Positions 5,170 through 22,729 of a stretch of 64,000 nucleotides of DNA are shown here, piece after piece. The position numbers were made by a program, and so were the translations under genes. Each line of letters opens with the position of its first letter. Position 1 is the stretch's first letter. Origin of the DNA: Candidatus Peribacteria bacterium (GTDB lineage: Bacteria; Patescibacteriota; Gracilibacteria; Peribacterales; Peribacteraceae). Below the pieces are notes generated by a model. The model did not search any database. It saw nothing but the letters and a program-made list of their open reading frames with translations, and was not told the DNA's origin. The DNA lies in NCBI GenBank assembly GCA_023245935.1, contig JAHFJM010000003.1, forward strand, positions 1 through 64,000. Direction: 5' to 3'.

Positions 5170-8100
5170 ATGCAATCAAACACTCGTCAAAGGCTGAAGA
5201 CCGGAGCAGCACTTGTTGTCCTTGTTGGGATGGTCATCGCTGCATACTCGCTCGTCGGAGCGTCGAGCATTCCTCAGAAATCCGATGAGCAATCAGCAAC
5301 ACACGTGACTTTTACCAAGACGGTTGTTTCGGTTCCCAGTGCATCCAAGCCCATTTCCAAGCCGACGTGGGTGGATATGAAGAGCGATTCGTGGCAGCGA
5401 AACTCTTCTGAAATCCCCGAGACGACAACGACTGTAGAGAGCAATATCCAGGAAAATGTTGCGCAGCGTTTGCAGAAACGTACGACCGGACTCTTCGCGT
5501 CGTTCGGTCCTGCGACCGATGGGCAGGTCCTCACATTCATCGGCGGGAAAATTTCCTGGGAGAATCTTCCGATCCTGCACGGAGCCGCAGGTTCATTCGA
5601 TACCGGTGACGATACGGGCGGCGGTCGCAAACCGTATCAACTGTCCGATGGCGAGCGTCATTACGGCGGAGGCGGGGGAGGAGGATCTTCTTCCAGTACG
5701 ACGATCACAAACACAACGACGGTAACCGGACTGTCTCAGTCTACGGCTGACGGACTGTACGTGAATGTCTCGGGTGACAGCATGGACGGTGCTCTCAGTA
5801 TTACCTACAACGGTCTCGGTCTTATCGTTTCCGGCACTGCTTCCGGCAACGTTCTTCATGCGGAGCGCTTGCTGACAGTCACTGGCTCGGCGATTTTCGA
5901 CGGCAATGCGAGGTTCAATTCAACGATGACCTTGAATGGCGTGACGTATAGCTTCCCCGGTTCCGACGGCAACGGATCCGGCAAAGTACTGAAGACGAAC
6001 GCTGCAGGTCAGCTGAGTTGGTCCGATGACAATACCGTCGGAACCGGGCTCTCGCAGAATTCGGGAGACGAACGGTACGTGAACCAAGCCGGCGATACGA
6101 TGACCGGAGCGCTCACGATCAATGTCACGAACGGCCTCTCGGCAACCCTCGGGCTCAAAGTCATCAACGCATTCTCCGGTGCTGTCGTACATGCTGAGAA
6201 AACTCTCACTTCCTCCGGCAATCTTGTTTGGGAAAGAGCAGCCTCCGGAGCCTCACTCTACGTTGCCACCTCAATCAATGGTGCAGGACTCACGGATTGT
6301 GATGCAGCCACGCAAACTCTCGCATGGGATGCGACCACCGGCAGATTCTCCTGCGGCACAGATTCCGACACCACCTACACAGCAGGACAAGGCTTCACGA
6401 CCAATGGAACCAACTTCTCACTTTCTTCTGCGTTCTCCGGAACATCTCTGAAGATCTTCGGAACACTGACCGGAAACATTCTCCACGCCGAGAAAACCCT
6501 CACTAGCTCAGGCACCTTCACCGTCGAAGGAGCCATGTCCGGTTCTTCCCTTTATGTCGCCACCAGCATCAACGGTGCAGGACTCACGGACTGTGATCTC
6601 TCCACGCAGAAACTCGCATGGGACAGCACCACCGGACGCTTCTCCTGCGGCACAGACCTGAACACCGGTACGACAGCCGCCCCAAGCATTAACTCCGGTT
6701 CCGTCTTCACGCTCGGTGATGCTCGGTACGTGAAGAAGCAAGGAGACACCATGACGGGAGTACTCACGATCAACAAAACCGGCGCAGAAGTTGGTCTCGA
6801 TGTGAAGCAGGCAGGTTGGTTCAACTCCATCCACTCCACCGGCTCCATCCTCTCCAAAGGAACACTCTCGGGAGTGAACCTCATCATCTCCGGTGTCTCT
6901 TCTCATTCCGGTGCTGCGATGTTCAAATCGAATGTCACCGTCAAAGGAACCCTCTCCGGTCAGACTCTCCAGATCGCCAACAATGCTTCCATCTCCGGTG
7001 CCCTCCTCGTTAAAACCGGTATCACGAGCAAAGGCTCTGTGAGTGGTGCCACCATTAATGGCTTCCACTTGGGTTCTTGTAACGGTGCATCGCAGAAACT
7101 TCTCTACAACAATTCCACGCAGACATTTGAGTGTGGAACGGATCTCAATACCGGTGGAACAGGCACCTTCGGCACAGGCAATGTGATCACGATCGGCGAC
7201 GGTCGATATGTGAATACCTCCGGTGATACGATGACCGGAGCGCTGACGATCAATGTCACGAACGGTCTCTCTGCAACTCTTGGACTCAAAGTTCTCAATG
7301 CATTCTCCGGTGCGGTGATTCATGGCGAGAAAACTCTCACCTCTTCAGGAACTCTCACATGGGAAGGAGCCGCTTCCGGCGCTTCTCTGTACGTTGCTAC
7401 TTCTCTGAACGGCGCAGGACTCACGGACTGTGATGCAGCAACGCAAACTCTCGCTTGGGATGCAACAACCGGCAGATTCTCCTGTGGTACCGATTCCGAC
7501 ACCACCTACACAGCCGGCCAGGGTCTCACGACGAACGGTACCAACTTCTCCCTCTCCTCCGCCCTCTCCGGCACCTCTCTCAGACTCTTCGGCACTCTCA
7601 CCGGAAACATTCTTCACGCTGAGAAGACTCTTACCTCTTCCGGCACTCTCACCATCGAAGGAGCCATGTCCGGTTCCTCCCTCTACATCGCAACCAGCAT
7701 CAATGGAGCAGGGCTCACGGATTGTGATCTCTCCACACAGAAACTCGCATGGGACAGCACCACCGGACGCTTCTCCTGCGGCACGGATCTCAACACCGGT
7801 TCCACCGCTCCTCCTTCCATCAACTCCGGCTCAGTCTTCACACTCGGCAATCTTCATTTCGTGAATGTCGGAGGCGACACCATGACGGGTGCACTCACGA
7901 TCAACAAAACGTCCGCCGAAGTCGGTCTCAACGTCGTGCAAGCCGGTTGGTTCGGTAGCATCCACTCCACCGGCTCGATTCTCTCGAAAGGAACACTTTC
8001 CGGCGTGAACCTCATCATCTCCGGCGTCTCTTCTCATTCCGGTGCTGCGATGTTCAAATCGAATGTCACCATTAAAGGCACTCTCTCCGGACAAACTCTC

Positions 8101-11100
8101 CAGATTGCCAACAATGCCTCAATCTCCGGTGCCCTCCTTATTAAGGGAAACCTCGCCACCAAATCCAACCTCTCCGGTTCCGCCCTCTTCGGTATGGGAC
8201 TCGGCGATTGCAGCAACTCAACCACCTCCAAACTTATCTACAACAACTCCACCGGTAAATTCTCGTGTGCCAGCGACATCGACACCAACACCACCTACAC
8301 AGCCGGCCAGGGTCTCACGACGAACGGTACCAACTTCTCCCTTTCCTCCGCCCTCTCCGGCACTTCTCTCAGACTCTTCGGCACTCTCACCGGAAACATT
8401 CTCCATGCCGAGAAAACCCTCACCAGCTCAGGCACCCTCACCGTCGAAGGAGCCATGTCCGGTTCTTCCCTCTACGTCGCAACCAGCATCAACGGTGCAG
8501 GACTCACGGACTGCGATCTCTCCACGCAGAAACTCGCATGGGACAGCACCACCGGTCGTTTCTCCTGCGGCACAGACCTGAACACCGGTTCCACTGCTCC
8601 TCCTTCCATCAACTCCGGTTCCGTCTTCACGCTCGGAAACCCTCATTTCGTGAATGTCGGGGGCGACACCATGACGGGCGCACTCACCATCAATGTCACG
8701 AACGGTCTCTCGGCCACTCTCGGACTCAAAGTTCTCAACGCATTCTCCGGTTCCGTGATTCACGCCGAGAAAACTCTTACCAGCTCCGGCGGTCTCGTCT
8801 GGGAAGGCGCTGCCTCGGGTTCTTCCCTCTACGTCGCCACTTCTCTCCGTGGTGCAGGACTCACAGACTGTACCGGTGGCAACAAGCTCCTCTGGGATTC
8901 CTCGACCGGCAGATTCACCTGCGGTGTTGATCAGTCTGCCGGCACTGGGCTTGATCAAAATTCTGCCGATGTTCGCTACGTCAATCAATCCGGAGACACC
9001 ATGACCGGTCTCCTCACCATCAACCTTGCCGCTTCCGCCGTCGGTCTCGATGTGAAGCAGGCAGGTTGGTTCAACACCATCCACTCCACCGGTTCGATTC
9101 TCTCCAAAGGAACCCTCTCCGGCGTGAACCTCATCATCTCCGGTGTCTCTTCTTTCTCCGGTGCTTCCACCTTCAAGAACAACCTTACGGTCAAAGGCAC
9201 TCTCTCCGGTCAAACTCTCCAGATTGCCAACAATGCTTCCATCTCCGGTGCCCTCCTCGTCAAAGGAAACATCGCAACGAAAGCCACTCTCTCGGGTGCT
9301 TCGCTCATCGGCTTCGGTCTCGGCGATTGCAGCAATGCCACGACCAGTAAACTCATCTACAACAACTCCACCGGAAAATTCTCGTGTGCTACGGACACTG
9401 ACACGAATACGACCTACACCGCAGGACAGGGTCTCACGACCAACGGTACCAACTTCTCCCTTTCCTCCGCCCTCTCCGGCACTTCTCTCAGACTCTTCGG
9501 CACTCTCACGGGAAACATTCTTCATGCCGAGAAGACACTCACCAGCTCAGGCACCCTCACCGTCGAAGGAGCCATGTCCGGTTCTTCCCTCTACGTCGCA
9601 ACCAGCATCAACGGTGCAGGACTCACGGACTGTGATGCAGCAACGCAAACTCTCGCTTGGGATGCAACAACCGGCAGATTCTCCTGTGGTACCGATTCCG
9701 ACACCACCTACACCGCAGGACAGGGTCTCACGACCAACGGTACCAACTTCTCCCTTTCCTCCGCCCTCTCCGGCACTTCTCTCAGACTCTTCGGCACTCT
9801 CACGGGAAACATTCTTCACGCTGAGAAAACGCTTACCTCTTCCGGAACACTCACGATTGAAGGTGCAATGTCTGGAGCATCTCTCTACGTCGCCACCAGC
9901 ATCAACGGTGCAGGACTCACGGACTGTGATCTCTCCACGCAGAAACTCCTCTGGGACAGCACCACCGGACGTTTCTCTTGTGGAACAGACCTGAACACCG
10001 GCACGACAGCCGCCCCGAGCATCAACTCCGGTTCTGTCTTCACCCTCGGTGATGCCAGATTCGTGAAGAAACAAGGAGACACGATGACCGGAGCCCTCAC
10101 GATCAACAAAACCGGCGCAGAAGTTGGTCTGGATGTGAAGCAGGCAGGCTGGTTCAACTCCATCCACTCCACCGGCTCGATTCTCTCGAAAGGAACACTT
10201 TCCGGAGAAAACCTTATTGTCTCAGGTGTCTCCTCCTTCTCCGGCATCGTCGTCCTCAAGGGAAATCTCCTTTCGAAAGGTACTCTCTCAGGACAGAACC
10301 TCATCATCTCCGGTGTTTCTTCTCACTCCGGTGCTGCGATGTTCAAATCGAATGTCACCATTAAAGGCACTCTCTCCGGACAAACTCTCCAGATTGCCAA
10401 CAATGCCTCAATCTCCGGTGCCCTCCTTATTAAGGGAAACCTCGCCACCAAATCCAACCTCTCCGGTTCCGCCCTCTTCGGTATGGGACTCGGCGATTGC
10501 AGCAACTCAACCACCTCCAAACTTATCTACAACAATTCCACCGGAAAGTTCTCGTGTGCCAGTGATCAGACCGGAAGCAGCGGGCTCTCCTTCACGAATG
10601 CAGAAGGAATCTATGTGAATCAGGGTGGCGATACGATGACAGGTGCTCTGAATATCAATGTCACGGGCGGCGGATTTGCCACAGTCGGTCTCAAGGTCGT
10701 GAACACCATCACCGGTGCGATCATCCATGCGGAGAAAAATCTCACGAGCTCGGGAAATATCGTTGCCGCTCAGGACATTACGGCGAAGAGGAATCTTTCC
10801 GGAAGCAGCATCACTGTTTCACGGAATGGTTCCATTTCCGGCTCGCTCACAGTCAAAACGAGTATTGTCAGTCAGGGTTCTCTCTCCGGTTCTACGTTCT
10901 ATGGAGCCAACCTTGGAGACTGTAATAACAGCACGACATCAAAACTCATCTACAACCTCGCAACAGGAAAATTCGGCTGTGCGACGGATCAGACCGGAAG
11001 TGCTGCTCCGAGCATCAACTCCGGCTCCGTCTTCACGCTCGGCAATCTTCATTTCGTGAACGTCGGCGGAGACACGATGACCGGTGCTCTCGTTATCAAC

Positions 11101-14100
11101 AAGACCAGTGCTGCCGTCGGTCTCGACGTCAAGCAAGCTGCTTGGGTCAACACTCTCCACGCAACCGGTTCGATCCTCAGCAAAGGAACCATTTCCGGCA
11201 GCAACCTCATCGTCTCCGGTGTCTCCTCCTTCTCCGGCATCGTCGTTCTCAAGGGAAACCTTCTCAGTAAGGGCACTCTCTCCGGACAGAATCTCATCAT
11301 CTCCGGAGTTTCCTCTTTCTCCGGCGCTTCCACCTTTAAGAACAACCTTACGGTCAAAGGAACTCTCTCCGGTCAAACTCTCCAAATCGCCAACAATGCT
11401 TCTATCTCCGGTGCCGTGATCATCAAAGGAAATCTCGCAACGAAAGCCACACTCTCGGGTGCGTCTGTCTACGGCTTCGGCCTCGGAGATTGCAGCAACA
11501 GCACGACCTCCAAACTCATCTACAACAATTCCACCGGGAAATTCTCGTGTGCCACTGATGTCGACACCGATACGAATACCAGTTACACAGCAGGACAAGG
11601 TCTCACGACAAACGGAACGAACTTCTCGCTTTCCTCAGCACTCTCGGGAACCTCTCTCAAGATCTTCGGCACTCTCACCGGAAAAATTCTGCATGCTGAG
11701 AAGACTCTTACATCCTCGGGAACTCTCACCGTCGAAGGAGCAATGTCCGGAGCCTCACTGTACGTTGCCACCTCAATCAATGGCGCAGGACTCACGGATT
11801 GCGATGCAGCAACACAGACTCTCGCATGGGACGCAACAACCGGTCGCTTCTCCTGCGGAACGGACTCCGATACAACCTACACTGCAGGTCAGGGGCTCAC
11901 GACAAACGGAACCAACTTCTCTCTCTCCTCCGCACTCTCAGGAACCTCTCTCAGACTCTTCGGAACTCTGACGGGAAACATTCTGCATGCGGAGAAGAAC
12001 CTCACTTCTTCAGGAACAATGGTGATTGTTGGCAATGGAAACATCAGAGGAACGCTTTCGGGCAACATCATTCATGCGGAAAAAAATCTCACAAGCTCAG
12101 GTGCGATTGTCGCAGTTGGAGACATACTTTCTCGAAACGGAACAGCAAAAACAAAAGGTTATGTTTTCTTTTCAGGTGCAACACTCTCCGAGATGAGCGG
12201 CTTCAATGAATATCTGAACATCATTCATTCCGGTCTCGGAACGAACTCCGTTACCCGTCTTACGAATCAAGGAGATCTCGTGAATATCGGAACGATTCAA
12301 GCGGGAGAAACACACATGAGGAGAGGAGGGACGTTTGCGACAAAGGTGGATTATGCGACGGGAACCACTCCGCAGTTTGTCGCCATCAGAGACCTCAATA
12401 GTGACGGAAAGGCTGATCTTGTGGTAGTGAACGGAGCGAGCAACTCCGTCTCCGTCTTCATTGGCACAGGCTCGGGTCTCTTCGTCGCCAAAGTAGACTA
12501 CCCAACAGGAAGCAACCCTTTCTCCGTCGCTATCGGTGATCTGAATGGCGATGGGAAACCTGATCTTTCCGTCGCAAATTACAGCAGCAACTCCGTCTCC
12601 GTCTTCCTCAATAACGGCAATGGAACATTCGCCGGTAAAGTCGATTATACAACGGCAACGTCTCCTCATTCCGTTGCTATCGGTGATCTGAATGGCGATG
12701 GGAAGCCCGATCTTGCTGTAGCAAATAATGCTAGCGACTCGGTCTCCGTCTTCCTGAACAGAGGGAACGGCACTTTCGCTGCAAAGGTTGATTATACGAC
12801 TGGAAACGGTCCCTATGCCGTTGCAATCGGAGACCTGAACGGAGACGGCAAGGCGGATCTTGTCGTTACAAATGCCGGCAGTACCTACGCTTCTGTTTTC
12901 TTGAATAACGGTGACGGAACATTCGCCTCGAAAGTTGATTACACGACGGGATTCAGTAACTATGCCGTCGCAATCGGAGATCTGAACGGTGACGGAAAGG
13001 CGGACTTTGCAGTTACCATACACAATAGCAATATTGTCTACGTCTTCCTCAATAACGGTGACGGAACATTCGCTTCGAAGGTTGATTACACGGCGGGGGA
13101 TACCTCCAGTTCCATTGCCATTGGAGACCTGAATGGTGACGGAAAAGCAGATCTTGCAGTTGGAAATCAGGCTAGTGGTGTAGGAACCTTTGTTTCCATC
13201 TTGATCAACAACGGCAACGGCACCTTCGCAACGAAGGTGGATTATACGACGGGAACTGGTCCTCTTGTTGCAATCGGAGATCTCAATGGTGACGGAAAAG
13301 CAGATCTTGCTGTTGCCAACTCTGCAAGCGACTCTGTTTCAGTATTGCTCAACATCTCCAAGACTATCCTCTTTGCATCTTCCGGCACCGGCGGCGCCGT
13401 TGGTATCGGAACTTCCACTCCGGGTTCCGCGCTGTCCGTGTCCGGTGCGGTGCTCATCAACGGCTACGGAAATATCCTCAATACGAAAGTCGACGTCGGT
13501 CTTGCGCTCGAAGTGATCGGCACCATGTCCGGTCGAGTACTGCATGCACAGGATGTGCTTCGCTCCTCCGGCTCACTTATTGTCGAAGGGACGATCTCGG
13601 GAGCAACACTCCGCGGTGCGGGACTTGCAAGTTGCAACGGCTCCACACAGAAACTTCTCTATAACAATTCCACGAATAAATTTGAATGCGGCACTGATCT
13701 GAACACCGGAGGAACAAGTACATTCGGCTCCGGGAACGTGATCAACGTCGTTGAAGGCAGATATGTGAACACCTCCGGCGACACCATGACCGGTGCTCTC
13801 ACGATCAATGTCACGAACGGTCTCTCTGCCACTCTCGGACTCAAAGTTCTCAACGCATTCTCCGGTGCCGTCGTTCACGCTGAGAAAACTCTCACCAGCT
13901 CCGGCGGTCTCGTCTGGGAAGGAGCAGCTTCAGGATCTTCCCTCACCCTCGGTACTTCTCTCCGTGGTGCAGGGCTCACAGACTGTACCGGTGGCAACAA
14001 ACTCCTCTGGGATTCTGCTTCCGGCAGATTCTCCTGCGGCGTTGATCAATCCGCCGGATCAGGCTTGGATCAGAATTCCGCTGATGCTCGCTACGTCAAT

Positions 14101-17100
14101 CAGTCGGGAGACACCATGACCGGTCTCCTCACCATCAACCTGGCTGCTTCCGCCGTCGGTCTTGATGTGAAGCAGGCAGGCTGGTTCAACTCGATCCACT
14201 CCACCGGTTCGATCCTCTCCAAAGGCACTCTCTCCGGTGTGAACCTCATCATCTCCGGAGTCTCCTCTTTCTCCGGTGCTTCCACCTTCAAGAACAACCT
14301 TACGGTCAAAGGCACTCTCTCCGGTCAAACTCTCCAGATTGCCAACAATGCTTCCATCTCCGGTGCCCTCCTTATCAAAGGAAACCTTGCCACCAAATCC
14401 AACCTCTCCGGTTCCGCCCTCTTTGGCATGGGTCTCGGAGATTGCAGCAACAGCACGACCTCCAAACTCATCTACAACAATTCCACCGGTAAATTCTCGT
14501 GTGCCAGCGACATCGACACCAACACCACCTACTCAGCCGGACAGGGTCTCACGACAAACGGTACCAACTTCTCACTCTCCTCCGCCCTCTCCGGCACTTC
14601 TCTCAGACTCTTCGGCACTCTCACGGGAAACATTCTTCACGCTGAGAAGACTCTCACCTCTTCCGGGACACTCACGATTGAAGGTGCAATGTCCGGAGCC
14701 TCACTCTATGTTGCCACCTCAATCAATGGCGCAGGACTCACGGATTGTGATGCAGCAACGCAGACGCTGAACTGGGATTCCACCACCGGACGTTTCTCCT
14801 GTGGCACAGACTCCGACACCACCTACACAGCCGGCCAGGGTCTCACGACGAACGGTACCAACTTCTCCCTTTCCTCCGCCCTCTCCGGCACTTCTCTCAA
14901 ACTCTTTGGCACTCTCACCGGAAACATTCTTCATGCAGAAAAGACTCTCACGTCTTCGGGAACTCTCACCATCGAGGGCGCAATGTCCGGAGCCTCTCTC
15001 TACGTCGCCACTTCCTTCTCCGGGGTTGGACTGTCGGATTGTGATACTGCTGCTACCTCCAAGTTGCTTTGGGATGTTACCACCGGCAGATTCTCCTGCG
15101 GATCAGACCAGACCGGCGGCGGTTCCGCTCCTCCTTCCATCAACTCCGGCTCCGTCTTCACGCTCGGCAATCTCCACTTCGTGAATGTCGGCGGCGACAC
15201 CATGACGGGTGCACTCACCATCAACAAGACCGGCGCAGAAGTGGCTCTCGATATCAAACAAGCAGCGTGGGTCAATTCTCTCCATTCCACCGGTTCCATC
15301 CTTTCGAAAGGAAACCTTTCCGGAGAAACGTTGATCGTCTCCGGCAATGCAAACGTCTCCGGAGCACTTCTGACCAAAGGAAATATTTCCACTCGAGGAA
15401 CAATCTCCGGTGCAGCACTCAACATCATGAGCGGCAATTCCTACTTCCTCGGCAAGCTTGGAATCGGAAAATCGACCGCTCCAAACACCCCTCTCGAGAT
15501 CGTCGGCATGGGCTCGGGAACCAGCCTCTTCGCGATGCGAGCGCTCACAAGCAGCGGCTTCCTCGCCGTCCAGCAGTCGATTGCGATCGGTTCCGGTGCA
15601 ATCGTGATGGAGCAGAAGGCGAACAACACGGGTGCCTACCTGATGTCCAGCTTCACCGGCTCGGTGCATCCGCTCCTTGCGCTTGACAGCGCACGTCGAA
15701 GCTTCAAGGCACCCGCCATCATGTTCGGTTACCGCGGCAGCTTCGATACGTCACTCCAGCGCACGGACACGGGAACGCTTGCACTCTCCGGCAGTATGGT
15801 GATTCAGAATACGCTCAGCATCAAAGTCTTCGGAGCCGCAACGGCGACGACGGTTTGTCGCACTGCGACGGGCATGCTTGCAGCGTGCAGCTCGAGTCTT
15901 CGTTTCAAGGAAGATGTGCAGGACTTGAGCATGGGTCTTTCGGTCCTTCGGCAAATGCGTCCGGTCAACTTCAAGTGGAAAGGCAGAGACGAGCGTGACA
16001 TCGGTTTCATCGCCGAGGAAGTCGCAGCCGTCGATCCGATGCTTGCGACCTACAATAACGCCGGACAGATCGAAGGTGTGAAGTACATGCAGCTGACCGC
16101 GGTGCTCACGAATGCCGTGAAGACTCTCGATACGAGGCTGCTTGGCATCACGAATGACTCGGGCACAACTCTTCATGCTCGCGATCTGCTCGTCAGTTCC
16201 GGAGCCCTGAAGGTAGCCACATTCGGCACATTCGGTTCGGGCATTCTCCTCGACACGAAGTATGCAAATGGCGCTGAGAACGTCTTCGTCATCAAGTCGA
16301 GTGTCGGCGGTTCCGGAAGCAAAACTGTCTTCAGGATCAACGCTTCGGGCTCCGTCTTCACGACCGGAACATTCAACAGTCAGGGAGCGGACTACGCCGA
16401 GTGGTTCAAGTCCAGTGACAGACTAAAGATCGGCGAAGTTGTCTGTATTGATGTCGACCACGACAATACGGTCCTTCGTTGCGGACGCTCTGCAGATTCC
16501 AATGTGATGGGCATTGTCTCGACTCGTCCCGCGTTCATCGGCAATACGATCCCCGGGACTGAAGGACTCAGCAGAGAAGCCATGGCACGGAAGGGATATT
16601 TCCTCGTCGGTCTCATCGGTCAGGTTCCGGCACGCGCGACGCTCGAAGGAGGCATCATCCGCTCCGGCGACAGTCTGACGTCAGCGTCTGAGCCGGGCTT
16701 TGTGCGCAGAGCACGGGCAGGGGAATCGACGGTCGGTGTTGCGCTCGAAACATTCGATGGTTCGGCTTCGCTCACCACAGGTGGCTCGACATCTTCCACG
16801 TCGACGATCAACGTTCTCATCTCTCGTCGCAATTCGTCGATGACGGTCGATGCCGTCTCACAGAAAGTGCTCGACACGATCGCAAGCATGCAGATCGGGG
16901 ATGAGGTGAAACGCATGGTCGCCGCATCGGCGCAGCAATTCAATCTCTCCGGTTCTCTTGCGACCGCCGTTGCCTCCGAGATCGAATCTCTGAATCTGGA
17001 AGGCAGGATCTCTGCGGCGATCGAGAAACATCTCTCCGGTGCGACGCTTCCGCTCACGATCATTGCAAACCCTGCGTCCGGATTGTCGTTCGCTTCCGGC

Positions 17101-18078
17101 GGAATGCTGCATGCCGCAGCGCTCGAAGTCGAAAGCGGTGCCATGATTTCCGGCGCTCTTCGCTTGAATGGTTCGATGATCACGAGCAATCAGTTCTCAC
17201 TGATCAATTCTCAGGTATCAATGTTGTCCGTCTCCGGTTCCGCCATCCAGATCGGTTCACTGATGTCCTCAGGTTCTCTCACGTTGATCGGTCCCGTCAC
17301 GATCGAAGGGCTCTCGACGTTCCTCGGGGATGTCGAGATCAAAGGTGAGCTCTCTGTCAGCGCAAAACAGGCGGGCATTGCTCTCGTGCCGAAAGGAGGA
17401 ACGGGTGTGTCGGTCACGTTCTCCGGAGCATTCCTCGGAACACCGATCGTGACGGCGACGTCCGACGGCTTCGGTTCGTGGCGCCTCAGGAATCGCACGC
17501 AGTCCGGGTTCACCATCGAGCTCAAAGAGCCTGCGAACGAAGATGTCACATTCACGTGGCTTGCACTTTCTTCCAGAGCACCGAGCATGACAACAGGCGT
17601 GCCGGCGACCCCGTCGCTCATTCCGTTCCCTGTGAACAGTCTCGGTCAACCGGTCTCGAGTGATCCGATCTGGAACGGCTGCATTCAGGGTCATCCGCCG
17701 GTCGACGCTGACGGTGTTCCGTTCAGCTGCGCTCGGTATCATTCCGACTCGGTGTGGGATCATCCAGATCTGCATATCAGTTTCATCTATAGCAGCAGTC
17801 ACGATCCCGCGATTCTGACAATCCCTGAGGGATACCAAGTGACGGTTGTCGGAGGAGATACAGCTTCGAGCTCGTCTTCTCAATCTGACACTCCGACAGA
17901 CCAAAACATTCCTGAAATCAGCACAGATCCGATCGTTGTTCCTCAGGTAATTCCTATCATTGAAACAACCGACTCGGGATCGTCTGATGCATCGGTCACG
18001 GTCAATCCGGAGAGTGATGAGACGCCACCGGTACCGACTGAATCGGGTGTCGAAACAGGAAGTGCGCTCGAGGAGTAG
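5170..18078 (+). CDS. Giant repeat surface protein with tail-fibre modules, FG-GAP propeller and S74 self-cleaving domain
   Basis: 4302 residues. An N-terminal membrane segment (about 13-31) acts as signal or anchor. After a Gly-rich linker (about 166-180) come 13 copies of a G-D-x-M-x-G motif typical of phage tail-fibre shafts (residues about 200-2380 and 2870-3400). Seven DLNGDGK-type FG-GAP/VCBS repeats (about 2387-2735) interrupt them. The S74 chaperone-of-endosialidase domain begins at Ser3576-LRF-Lys3580-ED, the usual Ser/Lys autocleavage site, and includes DIGFIAEEV. Unlike classic S74 proteins, about 726 residues follow: a YAEWF...VMGIVSTRPAFIGN region resembling Peptidase_G2 (about 3742-3880), a segment resembling H-type lectin (about 4073-4135), and a Ser/Thr/Pro-rich acidic tail. 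Inference: a trimeric surface fibre for attachment. The exosortase gene follows 27 nt later. Confidence 0.88.
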   Translation: MQSNTRQRLKTGAALVVLVGMVIAAYSLVGASSIPQKSDEQSATHVTFTKTVVSVPSASKPISKPTWVDMKSDSWQRNSSEIPETTTTVESNIQENVAQRLQKRTTGLFASFGPATDGQVLTFIGGKISWENLPILHGAAGSFDTGDDTGGGRKPYQLSDGERHYGGGGGGGSSSSTTITNTTTVTGLSQSTADGLYVNVSGDSMDGALSITYNGLGLIVSGTASGNVLHAERLLTVTGSAIFDGNARFNSTMTLNGVTYSFPGSDGNGSGKVLKTNAAGQLSWSDDNTVGTGLSQNSGDERYVNQAGDTMTGALTINVTNGLSATLGLKVINAFSGAVVHAEKTLTSSGNLVWERAASGASLYVATSINGAGLTDCDAATQTLAWDATTGRFSCGTDSDTTYTAGQGFTTNGTNFSLSSAFSGTSLKIFGTLTGNILHAEKTLTSSGTFTVEGAMSGSSLYVATSINGAGLTDCDLSTQKLAWDSTTGRFSCGTDLNTGTTAAPSINSGSVFTLGDARYVKKQGDTMTGVLTINKTGAEVGLDVKQAGWFNSIHSTGSILSKGTLSGVNLIISGVSSHSGAAMFKSNVTVKGTLSGQTLQIANNASISGALLVKTGITSKGSVSGATINGFHLGSCNGASQKLLYNNSTQTFECGTDLNTGGTGTFGTGNVITIGDGRYVNTSGDTMTGALTINVTNGLSATLGLKVLNAFSGAVIHGEKTLTSSGTLTWEGAASGASLYVATSLNGAGLTDCDAATQTLAWDATTGRFSCGTDSDTTYTAGQGLTTNGTNFSLSSALSGTSLRLFGTLTGNILHAEKTLTSSGTLTIEGAMSGSSLYIATSINGAGLTDCDLSTQKLAWDSTTGRFSCGTDLNTGSTAPPSINSGSVFTLGNLHFVNVGGDTMTGALTINKTSAEVGLNVVQAGWFGSIHSTGSILSKGTLSGVNLIISGVSSHSGAAMFKSNVTIKGTLSGQTLQIANNASISGALLIKGNLATKSNLSGSALFGMGLGDCSNSTTSKLIYNNSTGKFSCASDIDTNTTYTAGQGLTTNGTNFSLSSALSGTSLRLFGTLTGNILHAEKTLTSSGTLTVEGAMSGSSLYVATSINGAGLTDCDLSTQKLAWDSTTGRFSCGTDLNTGSTAPPSINSGSVFTLGNPHFVNVGGDTMTGALTINVTNGLSATLGLKVLNAFSGSVIHAEKTLTSSGGLVWEGAASGSSLYVATSLRGAGLTDCTGGNKLLWDSSTGRFTCGVDQSAGTGLDQNSADVRYVNQSGDTMTGLLTINLAASAVGLDVKQAGWFNTIHSTGSILSKGTLSGVNLIISGVSSFSGASTFKNNLTVKGTLSGQTLQIANNASISGALLVKGNIATKATLSGASLIGFGLGDCSNATTSKLIYNNSTGKFSCATDTDTNTTYTAGQGLTTNGTNFSLSSALSGTSLRLFGTLTGNILHAEKTLTSSGTLTVEGAMSGSSLYVATSINGAGLTDCDAATQTLAWDATTGRFSCGTDSDTTYTAGQGLTTNGTNFSLSSALSGTSLRLFGTLTGNILHAEKTLTSSGTLTIEGAMSGASLYVATSINGAGLTDCDLSTQKLLWDSTTGRFSCGTDLNTGTTAAPSINSGSVFTLGDARFVKKQGDTMTGALTINKTGAEVGLDVKQAGWFNSIHSTGSILSKGTLSGENLIVSGVSSFSGIVVLKGNLLSKGTLSGQNLIISGVSSHSGAAMFKSNVTIKGTLSGQTLQIANNASISGALLIKGNLATKSNLSGSALFGMGLGDCSNSTTSKLIYNNSTGKFSCASDQTGSSGLSFTNAEGIYVNQGGDTMTGALNINVTGGGFATVGLKVVNTITGAIIHAEKNLTSSGNIVAAQDITAKRNLSGSSITVSRNGSISGSLTVKTSIVSQGSLSGSTFYGANLGDCNNSTTSKLIYNLATGKFGCATDQTGSAAPSINSGSVFTLGNLHFVNVGGDTMTGALVINKTSAAVGLDVKQAAWVNTLHATGSILSKGTISGSNLIVSGVSSFSGIVVLKGNLLSKGTLSGQNLIISGVSSFSGASTFKNNLTVKGTLSGQTLQIANNASISGAVIIKGNLATKATLSGASVYGFGLGDCSNSTTSKLIYNNSTGKFSCATDVDTDTNTSYTAGQGLTTNGTNFSLSSALSGTSLKIFGTLTGKILHAEKTLTSSGTLTVEGAMSGASLYVATSINGAGLTDCDAATQTLAWDATTGRFSCGTDSDTTYTAGQGLTTNGTNFSLSSALSGTSLRLFGTLTGNILHAEKNLTSSGTMVIVGNGNIRGTLSGNIIHAEKNLTSSGAIVAVGDILSRNGTAKTKGYVFFSGATLSEMSGFNEYLNIIHSGLGTNSVTRLTNQGDLVNIGTIQAGETHMRRGGTFATKVDYATGTTPQFVAIRDLNSDGKADLVVVNGASNSVSVFIGTGSGLFVAKVDYPTGSNPFSVAIGDLNGDGKPDLSVANYSSNSVSVFLNNGNGTFAGKVDYTTATSPHSVAIGDLNGDGKPDLAVANNASDSVSVFLNRGNGTFAAKVDYTTGNGPYAVAIGDLNGDGKADLVVTNAGSTYASVFLNNGDGTFASKVDYTTGFSNYAVAIGDLNGDGKADFAVTIHNSNIVYVFLNNGDGTFASKVDYTAGDTSSSIAIGDLNGDGKADLAVGNQASGVGTFVSILINNGNGTFATKVDYTTGTGPLVAIGDLNGDGKADLAVANSASDSVSVLLNISKTILFASSGTGGAVGIGTSTPGSALSVSGAVLINGYGNILNTKVDVGLALEVIGTMSGRVLHAQDVLRSSGSLIVEGTISGATLRGAGLASCNGSTQKLLYNNSTNKFECGTDLNTGGTSTFGSGNVINVVEGRYVNTSGDTMTGALTINVTNGLSATLGLKVLNAFSGAVVHAEKTLTSSGGLVWEGAASGSSLTLGTSLRGAGLTDCTGGNKLLWDSASGRFSCGVDQSAGSGLDQNSADARYVNQSGDTMTGLLTINLAASAVGLDVKQAGWFNSIHSTGSILSKGTLSGVNLIISGVSSFSGASTFKNNLTVKGTLSGQTLQIANNASISGALLIKGNLATKSNLSGSALFGMGLGDCSNSTTSKLIYNNSTGKFSCASDIDTNTTYSAGQGLTTNGTNFSLSSALSGTSLRLFGTLTGNILHAEKTLTSSGTLTIEGAMSGASLYVATSINGAGLTDCDAATQTLNWDSTTGRFSCGTDSDTTYTAGQGLTTNGTNFSLSSALSGTSLKLFGTLTGNILHAEKTLTSSGTLTIEGAMSGASLYVATSFSGVGLSDCDTAATSKLLWDVTTGRFSCGSDQTGGGSAPPSINSGSVFTLGNLHFVNVGGDTMTGALTINKTGAEVALDIKQAAWVNSLHSTGSILSKGNLSGETLIVSGNANVSGALLTKGNISTRGTISGAALNIMSGNSYFLGKLGIGKSTAPNTPLEIVGMGSGTSLFAMRALTSSGFLAVQQSIAIGSGAIVMEQKANNTGAYLMSSFTGSVHPLLALDSARRSFKAPAIMFGYRGSFDTSLQRTDTGTLALSGSMVIQNTLSIKVFGAATATTVCRTATGMLAACSSSLRFKEDVQDLSMGLSVLRQMRPVNFKWKGRDERDIGFIAEEVAAVDPMLATYNNAGQIEGVKYMQLTAVLTNAVKTLDTRLLGITNDSGTTLHARDLLVSSGALKVATFGTFGSGILLDTKYANGAENVFVIKSSVGGSGSKTVFRINASGSVFTTGTFNSQGADYAEWFKSSDRLKIGEVVCIDVDHDNTVLRCGRSADSNVMGIVSTRPAFIGNTIPGTEGLSREAMARKGYFLVGLIGQVPARATLEGGIIRSGDSLTSASEPGFVRRARAGESTVGVALETFDGSASLTTGGSTSSTSTINVLISRRNSSMTVDAVSQKVLDTIASMQIGDEVKRMVAASAQQFNLSGSLATAVASEIESLNLEGRISAAIEKHLSGATLPLTIIANPASGLSFASGGMLHAAALEVESGAMISGALRLNGSMITSNQFSLINSQVSMLSVSGSAIQIGSLMSSGSLTLIGPVTIEGLSTFLGDVEIKGELSVSAKQAGIALVPKGGTGVSVTFSGAFLGTPIVTATSDGFGSWRLRNRTQSGFTIELKEPANEDVTFTWLALSSRAPSMTTGVPATPSLIPFPVNSLGQPVSSDPIWNGCIQGHPPVDADGVPFSCARYHSDSVWDHPDLHISFIYSSSHDPAILTIPEGYQVTVVGGDTASSSSSQSDTPTDQNIPEISTDPIVVPQVIPIIETTDSGSSDASVTVNPESDETPPVPTESGVETGSALEE
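6040..12130 (+). repeat. Coding repeat array 1 of the giant protein
   Basis: Long in-frame modules recur with near-identical DNA. Module A (GQGLTTNGTNFSLSS through TTGRFSCGTD) begins near 6382, 7516, 8302, 9424, 9718, 11593 and 11884. Module B (INSGSVFTLG through NNASISGALL) begins near 6687, 7818, 10018 and 11014. Module C (GDTMTGALTINVTNG) begins near 6091, 7225 and 8668. The near-identity over hundreds of bases suggests recent duplication or gene conversion, and the region is prone to misassembly from short reads. Confidence 0.85.
12328..13370 (+). repeat. Seven FG-GAP/VCBS repeats within the giant protein
   Basis: Seven repeats of about 48-50 residues, each with a calcium-loop-like D-L-N-(G/S)-D-G-K-x-D motif and a preceding K-V-D-Y-x-T-G strand. 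Seven units are what a closed seven-bladed integrin-alpha-type propeller requires. The block sits between two runs of fibre repeats. Confidence 0.85.
13770..15370 (+). repeat. Coding repeat array 2 of the giant protein
   Basis: The same A, B and C modules as array 1 resume after the propeller: GDTMTG motifs near 13783, 14110 and 15196, and GQGLTTNGTNFSLSS near 14539 and 14836. At DNA level they are very similar to array 1, implying the FG-GAP block was inserted into, or grew within, a pre-existing array. Confidence 0.8.
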
Positions 18079-18105: not shown

Positions 18106-19083
18106 ATGCAGAAGTTTGTTTTGCTCGTTAGAAAAATCGCTGCCGGCGATACGAGTCAGCTCTGTGTTGCATATCTTCTGACGCTTGCTTGTTCATGGCT
18201 CACATCAAGCGTGACTTTCGACCGGTGGCTTGGCATCCCACACCTCGACATCATCAACTATGCTGCCTCGCCCATCGAATGGCTGCTCTTGGTGCTTCTG
18301 ATGTGTGCCTACCTCAAGCCGCCTCGCACGACTCCGCCTGCCCTCCTTCTCGAGAGAGTACGTTGGTTCGAGTACGGTTCGCTCTTGCTCTTCATCGGGA
18401 GCGTTCTGTTCGCCGTGTGGTTCACACATCCAAACGATGAGATGTATCAGCGTATTCTTGCATTCCTCGGGAGCAACCACGTGCTCGGGGGACCGCTTGT
18501 TGCAGCGGCAATCGGCATCGTCACCGTCTTTCCGTTCTTCCCCGCCTACGCGTTCATCGCGCCGAGGACGGTGCTCGGGAAAGGTGTCGAGCTCATCGTG
18601 GTGTTCTTCACTCTCGTCGGTTGTTTCGCAATCAGCGTCATCGAAGCAATGTATTTTTCTGCGATTGCACCTTTCATCATTCGCCTGCTTTCGAAGATTC
18701 TCCTTCTGTTTTCGTGGAACGTGTATGCGAATCAGCAGTACGGCATCATCAGCATCGACGGATTCCGGGTGATCATCGGTCCCGCCTGCGCGGGATTCGG
18801 CTATCTGCTCCTGTTTCTTCTCTTCTTCACCTACATGGTGTTCATGCTTGGAACGAAGAAAAAAATCTCTTCCCTCCGGTCGTTCCTTGCACTGTTTCTC
18901 GGTCTTCTCTGCGTGTTCTTTCTGAATATTCTCCGCATCGTGACGCTGATGCTCGTAGGAATCAAATCTCCTGATTTCGCACTGACGCTCTTCCATAGCA
19001 TCATCGGAAGCGTGTATTTCCTGCTGTTCTTTTGGATGTATTTTCCGGTGCTGAAGAAATGGATCGGTGTGAAGAAAGGATAG
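18106..19083 (+). CDS. Exosortase/archaeosortase-family membrane protein
   Basis: A 325-residue polytopic membrane protein with about eight hydrophobic segments. It carries the three hallmarks of exosortases: Cys228 in GPACAGFG, Arg277 in NILRIV, and His297 in LFHSIIG, each at the edge of a membrane helix and in the family order. Exosortases are cysteine transpeptidases that cut C-terminal sorting signals and attach the protein to the cell surface. The gene begins 27 nt after the giant fibre gene. The likely substrate, with a C-terminal VPEF signal, is the protein at 20531-22729. The subfamily cannot be named from sequence reading alone. Confidence 0.82.
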   Translation: MQKFVLLVRKIAAGDTSQLCVAYLLTLACSWLTSSVTFDRWLGIPHLDIINYAASPIEWLLLVLLMCAYLKPPRTTPPALLLERVRWFEYGSLLLFIGSVLFAVWFTHPNDEMYQRILAFLGSNHVLGGPLVAAAIGIVTVFPFFPAYAFIAPRTVLGKGVELIVVFFTLVGCFAISVIEAMYFSAIAPFIIRLLSKILLLFSWNVYANQQYGIISIDGFRVIIGPACAGFGYLLLFLLFFTYMVFMLGTKKKISSLRSFLALFLGLLCVFFLNILRIVTLMLVGIKSPDFALTLFHSIIGSVYFLLFFWMYFPVLKKWIGVKKG

Positions 19084-19105
19084 GGAACGGTCAAAGTTCA
19101 AATCT

Positions 19106-20458
19106 ATGGTCAAACGACCCGCGATATGCTCTAATAAAGGAATGCGGCGAGCGAGTGCTGAAAGACTCGGCTTACGGAAAGCAGGTACACACGAAGCTTC
19201 GCCTATTGATTCTCTGAAACTATGGATTGCAGGATGGACTGCGGAGTTTCATGCAAAGACCACTCGGACAGCTGCAATCTCCGGTGAGAGCACAACCGTC
19301 GGTGCGAAGGAGACAGTGAAGGAAGTCATTTCCCTCCATGATGCGGTTTCGAAATTTCTGAGGGATCAGGGAACACCTCTGACTCCTGTTCAGCAGTCTC
19401 TGCTGGCACAATTGAAAAATGATCCTGATCTTCTGAGGAGAGATAAATCGAATTTTAAGGAGACATGGCAAACGTATCGATACGATACTGAGGAAGGACG
19501 TGAGTTAGGGAGATTAGCCGGGCAGTCGCAGGATATTGACAAACTGTGCCCTCATTTTTCATATGTGGAACCCACACGGTCACCTGATGAGGATGGTACC
19601 CGTCGCTTTACCGAAGAGACAACAGGTCGGTTTGAAGTGGAGTCGCGCGGTCACAATGTTATCAAACTCGTGGACAGTCCGGTTGTCGCTCAGGTTCCCG
19701 TTCCTGCAACGGTGCAAGCGCATTCCGGCAGTATCCGCAAAAGGCTATTTGCCGCCGTTGCCGGTGTAGGTGTGTTGCTTAGTGGTGCATATGTGGCAAA
19801 GGAAAAATTGTTCGACGGGCATGGAGAAAATCCGCAAGAAAATTTGATAAAAGCAGGATTCGATGTCTCGAGAGTCCCTGAGTTGTACGAACACACCGTT
19901 TCCAATGTCTTCTTGCTTGATTTGGATCTGAACAATATGAAACCGGAAGACGTTGCCAAGTTTCGACGCGTGGTTGAACTTATCGATGATGAAGAGGCGC
20001 TCGTCTACCTCTTGGAGAACGGCACCCCCGATGAAATCGTTCGTTTGCACAGAGCTCTCGATCACTGTTTTTCAATTCAAAAAGAGTTACGGAAGAATGA
20101 AGGTCTGAAGAAGGATAAGGAGCGTGCCATCGTCGCTGTCAGAGATGGCGATATCGCCGCAATTGAGAAGATCGATGAAGCAATGAGCAGTGAGTTGACG
20201 AGTGCGGAAGAACTCGTAGTGAAAACGTATGGAAAACCGTTTCTGGAATTTGCAAAAAAAAGAAAAATCGGAGTGCTGGATGCGACGGATTGTTCTATGC
20301 TGCCGAGGGGATCGAATTTTGTTTTTGCGGGCGACAGTCAGTCTGCCGTACGATCCTTCAAAAATCCGAATCCCAATATGCACTACAACGTGCGGATCAT
20401 CAAAACGTCCGCTCCTAAAGAGGATGAAGACCGGCACATGGCATCGTCACCGAAGTAG
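19106..20458 (+). CDS. Unknown protein with one central membrane segment, in the exosortase cluster
   Basis: 450 residues. A basic N-terminus is followed by a soluble charged region, one hydrophobic segment near residues 214-233 (LFAAVAGVGVLLSGAYVA), and a C-terminal helical, charged domain (about 245-430). No signal peptide, catalytic motif or known domain is recognisable. An alternative start is the ATG at 19142. It is encoded between the exosortase and its probable substrate on the same strand, so it may belong to the same surface-assembly unit; that is inference from position only. Confidence 0.6.
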   Translation: MVKRPAICSNKGMRRASAERLGLRKAGTHEASPIDSLKLWIAGWTAEFHAKTTRTAAISGESTTVGAKETVKEVISLHDAVSKFLRDQGTPLTPVQQSLLAQLKNDPDLLRRDKSNFKETWQTYRYDTEEGRELGRLAGQSQDIDKLCPHFSYVEPTRSPDEDGTRRFTEETTGRFEVESRGHNVIKLVDSPVVAQVPVPATVQAHSGSIRKRLFAAVAGVGVLLSGAYVAKEKLFDGHGENPQENLIKAGFDVSRVPELYEHTVSNVFLLDLDLNNMKPEDVAKFRRVVELIDDEEALVYLLENGTPDEIVRLHRALDHCFSIQKELRKNEGLKKDKERAIVAVRDGDIAAIEKIDEAMSSELTSAEELVVKTYGKPFLEFAKKRKIGVLDATDCSMLPRGSNFVFAGDSQSAVRSFKNPNPNMHYNVRIIKTSAPKEDEDRHMASSPK

Positions 20459-20530
20459 TCGGTACGGATGCAGTTTCCATACTCTTTCTAGCTTCTTTGA
20501 TTTACAATCGAATGTGTTTCAATTGCTTCC

Positions 20531-22729
20531 ATGAACGTACGTTTCCTCTTTTCCGTTCTCATTGCCTTTTTCTGTTTTCAACTGTCATCAGCGGTACACG
20601 CACAATCCTTCACATCCGTTCCTTCCGCCTTCGATCCCACAGCGTTCGGCATTGAAACAGGTGCAGTCGAAATCCCGTCACTTCGCACCGAAAAGACAGT
20701 CACATTCCGTTTGCCGAACGGCGACTTCACACAGGTCTCCGACGGTACCGATCGTTTCACCAGAGATGAGCGTGGCACACTTGTTCCCGTCAGTGATACA
20801 GGAGAAGAAACGTTGGAAGGAATCGTATTCGATCATCTGCCAAAAAGTACCGTCGTCACCTTCGACAGCGATTTCCCCGCGTACACGTACCGTCGCGGTG
20901 ATCACTTCTTCCGTCTAAGCTACACCGGTCGTGCAAAGGCGATCTTCGAGAAACCAAACGTTGTTTCCTACACACTCTCGGATCATGCGGTTCTCCGTTT
21001 CGCTGTGAAAGGAACGACCGTTCTCAAAGCCATCACGATCGACGGACCGGTCAATCCGAACATTCTCCGTTTCACCGTCACGCAGGATCAATCGCTGACG
21101 CAACGCAGCGAGTCCGGTGGCATCCTCCTCCAAACCGCAACCGGTACCGTTCTCTTCCGCGCTTCCGCTCCGTTTCTCCTCAGCGAATCGGGCACGCTTC
21201 TGAAACATGCAATCAGCATTCGCACTCTCGGCAACGGTCAGTATGTCTATGACTACGATCCAAGAAATCTCCCTTCCGTATACATCATCGATCCAAGCAC
21301 TTGTTCCACTGATCCCGGAACGCTTGTGAACGATACCACCGGTGGTGGGGCTGCTTGGGTCAATCCGACACGTGCAAGTTACAGTGATGATAGCTATGCG
21401 ACCATATCGAACGTCATGGGCGTATCAACGCAGACAAACTATCTGAAGGCGACGAATTTCGGCTTTCAGATTCCCTTCGGAACGGTCAAAGGCGTGACTG
21501 TGAGGATCGAACGTCATGCGATTGATGACACAAGCGTCAAGGATTCCACAGTGCAGCTCGTCGAGACAGGCAGTTTCGTCGGGGATAACAAAGCGAGTAC
21601 AACGTTCTGGCCGAATAGCGATGTCACCAAAATCTATGGTTCCGGCGGTGCCTTATGGGGTATAAGAATCAGCTCAACGCAGGCGAACAGAAGTGATTTC
21701 GGTGTTGCTCTGGCGGTGCAATGTCTCGATAACGTCAATTGTTTGTTGGCGATGGATAATCAAACCGAAGTCTCTGTCGATCACATCAGCATGGCCCTCA
21801 CCTATGCACAGATGTGCGAGACGAGTACCGGTGCAGCCATCACGCGCGATTATTCCATCTGTGTGAAACCGAAATACTTCAGTCCCCAGATAGGGGGATA
21901 TCACCCTCTCACTGGTACCGGCATGCCTCTCTGCAATGAAACAGGTTGCTATCTCATTCTCCCGAGAATCGGAACCGGAGGATTGGCTTCCGGAGTGCAT
22001 GCGTACCAACCGGGGTATGAAGGAGATCCTAATCCTACACATCAACTTGATAATAATTCGCCGGGGACTACATATCCATTCCTTGTACATTTTGGCTCAG
22101 GCTACAATTCGAATTATTCAAAAATTGCCGATGCGCTCATACAATTCCAGCCGATGACGGGTCTCAGTGGCGGGAATGAGGTATGCACCAGTCTCATCTA
22201 TGCCAATACGAGTGCCCAAAAATCAGTGTTCCACTTTGCTTCCGGAAGCGGTGGCTTGCAAACCTATCAAGGTTCTACTTTTAACTCTCCGTGTGGTGGT
22301 ATTTTTTTCCCAGCGTGTGGTTCTTTCTACCCTAAGTCCTACTTAGGCGGAACCGGTTTTACGCTCTTTGTTCCAAAAAGTGTTGCCCATGACCAGGTTC
22401 GTGTGTGCCAGGGGAAAAGGACTCTCGGCTGTACTGGCACCGGTAGCTGGTTCGATGACTACAACGGTATCAATATGAGTTTTGTCGCGAATGATCAGGG
22501 ACGCATCACTTCCACAAGCGGTAGTTACCTCACCGGCGGTGTTGTCGTACGAGTGGAGAACGGCTACTGGAGAATCGAAGGTCTGTATGGCACAGGCGGA
22601 GAAGGCGGAGACAGCAACAGTGGCGGAGGTGGTTCCGGTGGCTTTGCCGTTCCCGAGTTTTCGGCACTTGGTTTGATTGCAGTGCTTGCGGGGTGTGGGT
22701 ACATGATGAAAAAGAAGATGACGGGATAA
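20531..22729 (+). CDS. Secreted protein with C-terminal VPEF-type sorting signal
   Basis: 732 residues. The N-terminus MNVRFLFSVLIAFFCFQLSS is a signal peptide, with probable cleavage after VHAQ. The body is beta-rich and Ser/Thr/Gly-rich with several Cys. The C-terminus has the tripartite form of an exosortase substrate: a Gly-rich spacer, the motif VPEF at residues 707-710, a hydrophobic stretch (LGLIAVLAGCGYMM), and a basic end (KKKMTG). VPEF resembles the archaeal PEF-CTERM and bacterial PEP-CTERM signals. With the exosortase gene 1.4 kb upstream, this is the natural candidate substrate. The function of the body is unknown. Confidence 0.75.
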   Translation: MNVRFLFSVLIAFFCFQLSSAVHAQSFTSVPSAFDPTAFGIETGAVEIPSLRTEKTVTFRLPNGDFTQVSDGTDRFTRDERGTLVPVSDTGEETLEGIVFDHLPKSTVVTFDSDFPAYTYRRGDHFFRLSYTGRAKAIFEKPNVVSYTLSDHAVLRFAVKGTTVLKAITIDGPVNPNILRFTVTQDQSLTQRSESGGILLQTATGTVLFRASAPFLLSESGTLLKHAISIRTLGNGQYVYDYDPRNLPSVYIIDPSTCSTDPGTLVNDTTGGGAAWVNPTRASYSDDSYATISNVMGVSTQTNYLKATNFGFQIPFGTVKGVTVRIERHAIDDTSVKDSTVQLVETGSFVGDNKASTTFWPNSDVTKIYGSGGALWGIRISSTQANRSDFGVALAVQCLDNVNCLLAMDNQTEVSVDHISMALTYAQMCETSTGAAITRDYSICVKPKYFSPQIGGYHPLTGTGMPLCNETGCYLILPRIGTGGLASGVHAYQPGYEGDPNPTHQLDNNSPGTTYPFLVHFGSGYNSNYSKIADALIQFQPMTGLSGGNEVCTSLIYANTSAQKSVFHFASGSGGLQTYQGSTFNSPCGGIFFPACGSFYPKSYLGGTGFTLFVPKSVAHDQVRVCQGKRTLGCTGTGSWFDDYNGINMSFVANDQGRITSTSGSYLTGGVVVRVENGYWRIEGLYGTGGEGGDSNSGGGGSGGFAVPEFSALGLIAVLAGCGYMMKKKMTG

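Follow-up and report, generated by a model that had tools for sequence, protein, structure and literature searches.

Known exosortase and archaeosortase systems

Exosortases are usually associated with the outer membrane and are usually discussed in diderm bacteria that make exopolysaccharides. The exosortase A (EpsH)/PEP-CTERM system of diderm bacteria includes an enzyme of the same Pfam family as the one from Candidatus Peribacteria described here, but combines the PEP motif with many substrates, whereas the Peribacteria system combines PEF or PFF motifs with few substrates that are encoded next to the enzyme. The archaeosortase C/PEF-CTERM system of methanogenic archaea resembles the Peribacteria pair with respect to the P-E-F motif, the helix, the basic tail and the enzyme family, and archaeosortase C is among the named models that are closest to the Peribacteria enzyme (23.7 bits); nevertheless, the Peribacteria pair is bacterial, joins the enzyme to one substrate or a few in each genome and falls far below the archaeosortase C cut-off. 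The exosortase E/VPEID-CTERM system is similar in having a VPE-type motif, but the Peribacteria tail is VPEF rather than VPEID. Finally, the archaeosortase A (ArtA)/PGF-CTERM system of Haloferax volcanii, from which the mechanism proposed below is derived, has the same P-x-F logic and tripartite tail, but the route to the acceptor lipid of ArtA is not recognisable in the Peribacteria genome. ArtA links the cleavage of PGF-tailed proteins to the attachment of a lipid to their C-termini (PMC7157517).

The Peribacteria genome paper describes sortase A and S-layer genes, and its three mentions of "sortase" refer to sortases, not to exosortases. A search of an open-access paper library yielded no paper linking exosortases to Patescibacteria, Peregrinibacteria or Saccharibacteria and a single co-mention with CPR, made in passing. 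Some of these exosortase genes are certainly labelled as such by automatic annotation.

The exosortase of Candidatus Peribacteria

The window, i.e., the whole stretch of 64,000 nucleotides that was analysed, belongs to a CPR bacterium, as a first-pass annotation of the DNA had surmised, namely a tiny, uncultured one of the Candidatus Peribacteria. The same annotation took the 325-aa protein encoded in this window (Table 1) for an exosortase with a Cys228/Arg277/His297 triad, and both the coordinates and the assignment proved correct. The protein scores above the cut-off of the NCBIfam exo_archaeo model TIGR04178 (40 vs 23 bits) and barely above that of the Pfam model Exosortase_EpsH, PF09721 (25.8 vs 25.7 bits), and the triad is unchanged across all eight aligned homologues; the Cys, Arg and His motifs are likewise present in the remaining exosortase homologues of the class that were read. 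Judging from the model match, the triad and the co-occurring tripartite tails described below, this protein is a member of the exosortase/archaeosortase superfamily. A genome-wide search identified it as the single exosortase of the 1.22-Mb genome.

None of the named subfamilies was reached. The best match among these, exosortase E/VPEID-CTERM (TIGR04162), scored 35 bits against a cut-off of 150 and covers only positions 113–292 of the 516 positions of the model; archaeosortase C (TIGR03762) scored 23.7 bits against a cut-off of 100, the exosortase K, H, X, T and M models gave yet lower scores, each under its own cut-off, and no match to an ArtA model was reported. Among the solved structures, there was no sequence match to the exosortase and there were only noise matches to the substrate, and the AlphaFold2 models built from 3–4 sequences were poor for both proteins (mean pLDDT of 40 for the exosortase and 35 for the substrate).

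Table 1. Features of the exosortase locus in Candidatus Peribacteria (positions in the window)
Feature	Coordinates	Strand	Basis
Exosortase/archaeosortase-family protein of 325 aa with 8 hydrophobic segments	18106..19083	+	TIGR04178, PF09721
Cys228 codon (GPACAGF), predicted catalytic	18787..18789	+	Invariant in 8-sequence alignment
Arg277 codon (LNILRI), predicted catalytic	18934..18936	+	Invariant in 8-sequence alignment
His297 codon (LFHS), predicted catalytic	18994..18996	+	Invariant in 8-sequence alignment
450-aa protein, one hydrophobic segment, between the exosortase and substrate genes	19106..20458	+	Own genome only
Exported substrate protein of 732 aa, with signal peptide, body, Gly-rich linker and VPEF tail	20531..22729	+	Homology to exosortase neighbours
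Predicted signal peptide MNVRFLFSVLIAFFCFQLSSAVHA	20531..20602	+	Hydrophobic segment 1–19, AxA-type site, sequence reading
C-terminal sorting signal GGFAVPEFSALGLIAVLAGCGYMMKKKMTG, VPEF at 22649–22660	22637..22726	+	Tail profile E 1.3e-15; exosortase co-occurrence

The VPEF-tailed putative substrate and its relatives

The 732-aa protein contains exactly two hydrophobic segments, one in the N-terminal signal peptide, with the site between SSAVHA and QS, and the other at the C-terminus after VPEF, followed by KKK in the terminal MMKKKMTG; the original description of a secreted protein with VPEF, a hydrophobic stretch and a Lys-rich tail is thus confirmed. No CTERM tail model, PEF-CTERM and PEP-CTERM included, is hit by this protein or by ten related substrates. 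The body of the protein matches no Pfam or NCBIfam domain model, and its homologues include the proteins that follow the exosortase in two genomes of the same genus and PFF-tailed exosortase neighbours in two genomes of the same family. Few parts of the protein are as well conserved as the region of the tail (61% vs 38% overall), and all four substrates known from the genus have an invariant VPEF. A 1396-aa protein also contains the middle domain of the substrate (residues 486–646); it is encoded in another part of the same genome (C5:91116-95306) and has no PEF tail.

In its own genome, the PEF tail profile matched the 732-aa protein only (E 1e-14; next E 0.5); VPEF as a bare DNA pattern is uninformative (15 chance-like places). 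Neither of the two outcomes that the first-pass annotation had named as refuting its proposal occurred: the exosortase family model is hit, and the motif is conserved in relatives. No further clear tail turned up in the genome itself. With this one clear substrate, the system amounts to a dedicated pair, as opposed to a pathway that serves many substrates.

The proposed clustering of the exosortase with its substrate is seen in the same-genus relatives as well, and there the two genes are directly adjacent. In one of these genomes (G001), the substrate homologue, with the tail TTVPEFSAIGLLAVLVSCAYVLRKWILR, begins at the exosortase stop codon with an overlap of a few bases; in the other (G002), two tandem substrate homologues, both VPEFS-tailed, are encoded close behind the exosortase; no gene separates enzyme and substrate in either. 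The same arrangement is present in a genome of the same family (G210), with the tail PVPEFPFLGLL. In four further genomes (G013, G031, G026 and G222), the exosortase neighbour ends with VPFFSWW or APVFSWW, and the neighbours in G013 and G031 have parts of the 732-aa family body in common. Elsewhere in the class, in other families, exosortase neighbours end with PEF (G290, G280, G269 and two proteins in G279). When the PEF and PFF tails are compared, P and F are the sole invariant positions.

The tails are borne by unrelated protein bodies, namely the 732-aa family, an NHL-type propeller (G290), a repeat protein (G026) and short exported proteins of ~200 aa. One clade (100/98) of the exosortase tree comprises the enzymes of the same family and contains, as a subclade (100/100), the four VPEF enzymes. 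The tail-type labels change twice on this tree, compared with a mean of 6.8 changes for shuffled labels; that is, the type of tail, PEF or PFF, which are mutually exclusive, tracks the exosortase tree.

Co-occurrence of the tail and the enzyme

The distribution of the tails was examined in 353 genomes of the class, in 23 of which an alignment search finds an exosortase gene, using a PEF-tail profile (nine sequences, E <= 0.001) and a PFF-tail profile, P(F/V)F(S/P)xW (four sequences, E < 1e-4). The PEF profile matched 14 genomes, all 14 exosortase-positive, and the PFF profile matched 7, again all exosortase-positive and none of them in the PEF set. Altogether, these tails are present in 21 of the 23 exosortase-positive genomes and in 0 of the 330 exosortase-negative ones (Fisher p 7e-32, which ignores phylogeny). 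G282 and G285, both exosortase-positive, yielded no recognisable tail, also under relaxed thresholds.

Since the sequences in the profiles were taken from the neighbourhoods of exosortases, and 12 of the tail-positive genomes (21 in total) were among their sources, the figures for the held-out genomes are the fair ones: six genomes for PEF (G265, G278, G287, G299, G316 and G317; Fisher p 2e-9, ignoring phylogeny) and three for PFF (G003, G200 and G213; Fisher p 1.4e-4, with the same disregard of phylogeny). On inspection, all held-out matches are PxF tails; they are C-terminal in the six PEF genomes, G200 and G213, and the tail in G003 is truncated by the contig end. In the six held-out PEF genomes as well as in G213 and G200, the tail and the exosortase are on different contigs, so that the association is not mere adjacency. 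The restriction of the tail signal to enzyme-bearing relatives therefore suggests an overlooked protein-sorting pathway in these bacteria.

The first match of the PEF profile past the cut-off, L166 (G171; E 0.0016), has a PEP-CTERM-like tail (VPEPSVLLLLAVGVIG...); no exosortase was found in that genome, which points to contamination or a missing gene. Among the weak tail matches in exosortase-negative genomes (E 0.001–0.1), L166–L170, L174 and L189–L193 were inspected and rejected, not being PxF tails. The locus L019 (G003:C134), where the contig end cuts the FSWW tail, has a G+C content of 64%, above that of the loci of other relatives, and its exosortase still groups with the family.

Proposed mechanism and alternatives

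Family membership, the triad, the tripartite tail, adjacency and the strict co-occurrence of tail and enzyme form the basis for reading this locus as a dedicated exosortase/substrate pair. Very probably, the pair serves Candidatus Peribacteria for processing a Sec-exported substrate, which would be cut near VPEF and passed to an envelope molecule. By analogy with archaeosortase A, from which we infer export, cleavage, transfer and acceptor alike, Sec would export the 732-aa protein, whose C-terminal helix would keep it in the membrane with VPEF at the outer face. The exosortase would recognise P-x-F (PEF in this organism, PFF or PVF in the sister lineages) and would cut near it by means of Cys228, with Arg277 and His297 assisting. 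The acceptor in the envelope, to which the cut protein would then be transferred, would most likely be a lipid, as it is for archaeosortase A. Phosphatidylserine decarboxylase (PF02666) was not found in the genome, and therefore the ethanolamine-lipid route considered for ArtA is not recognisably encoded there. A surface or adhesion role fits an exported substrate displayed on the outside; the first-pass annotation had suggested symbiotic attachment as a possible use.

The exosortase could also be a protease only, in which case the tail would be clipped and the substrate freed to the medium or to a neighbouring cell, with no lipid transfer. This possibility, which we regard as unlikely albeit worth serious consideration, would give identical gene content and agrees with a genome that lacks a recognisable PE-making decarboxylase, but ArtA, the best studied relative, joins cleavage to lipid attachment (PMC7157517). 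Cleavage followed by transfer to the envelope is our preferred reading.

It is very unlikely that the tail is a plain C-terminal transmembrane anchor and that the exosortase acts on another target. Stop-transfer anchors also consist of a hydrophobic helix and a Lys tail, and there is a single clear tail in this genome, but conservation is specific to the motif, VPEF being unchanged throughout the genus, and the tail co-occurs with the exosortase even when unlinked and on unrelated proteins.

The first-pass annotation had also counted a giant S74 protein (5170–18078) and the 450-aa membrane protein as partners, in which case the S74 protein, the exosortase, the 450-aa protein and the substrate would be encoded in one surface-anchoring operon. 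The shared strand and the 27 bases between the S74 stop and the exosortase start are compatible with such an operon, but we consider it highly improbable. Relatives of the C-terminal part of the S74 protein are present in 14 of 29 genomes, many of them without an exosortase, and the best S74 matches in G001 and G002 are on contigs other than that of the exosortase; the 450-aa protein matches no NCBIfam or Pfam family and has no relative in 28 related genomes, so that conserved linkage is lacking. Both proteins were accordingly dropped as parts of the system, and the conserved unit, as judged from sequence comparison, is the enzyme plus the tail. The S74-type C-terminal part is common to three giant proteins of the genome (5170–18078 and two near 114000 and 129000 in G000:C5), whose open frames run to ~4300, ~4700 and ~4800 aa; such giants are common in the family with or without an exosortase.

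That the substrate is anchored not by the exosortase but by the class sortases (two PF04203 genes) is scarcely credible, given that, despite the two encoded sortases and the LPxTG-like tails elsewhere in the genome, the tail of the 732-aa protein has VPEF and no LPxTG-type motif and is restricted to exosortase-positive genomes within the class.

Other possible sorting signals in the genome

The two class sortases (PF04203) are encoded at C8:96754-98061 and C4:61630-62838, and LPxTG-like tails (FPTTG, LPNSG and LPKSG) are present in the same genome. These observations point to sorting by sortases in addition to the exosortase, and the two routes probably coexist in this organism. A 278-aa protein (C3:6748-7584) ends with LPKSGPEFSFVLFV... 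/ RLPKSGPEFSFVLFVTLLGLYIGTLHARNRERA, which combines an LPxSG-like with a PEF-like signal; this ending is possibly a sortase or an exosortase signal, and the protein may be a second substrate of one enzyme or the other. A small exported protein that is conserved between genera (C6:67362-67940 in this genome, and L120:1669-2208) carries the tail SGAP.V..TGP.S.L ahead of a helix and a basic end, which may be another C-terminal sorting signal.

Distribution across the phylum

On balance, we are inclined to consider the exosortases of Peribacteria and related CPR bacteria an undescribed subfamily, with a P-x-F-CTERM signal that, along with the enzyme, appears to have changed between PEF and P(F/V)F-(S/P)xW, and with dedicated, near one-to-one surface anchoring in bacteria that probably have no outer membrane. 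Exosortases would thereby be extended to ultra-small bacteria, beyond the diderm, exopolysaccharide-making ones. The enzyme-plus-tail pair offers a sequence handle for finding anchored surface proteins of CPR bacteria and bears on how their surface is built and how they stay attached to hosts, and the two exclusive tail types that track the enzyme tree provide a natural comparison for the choice of substrates by exosortases.

Across the phylum, TIGR04178 identifies exosortases in 18 of 379 genomes, 17 of them above the cut-off. Several of the other CPR exosortases adjoin proteins with IPEF, VPEY, IPEY or VPE-type basic tails. Specifically, the exosortases of L135 (G398), L139, L142, L143 and L151 have neighbours with IPEF, VPEY, IPEY, VPEK, VPEA and IPER tails, suggesting that PEP-CTERM-like systems recur across the phylum.
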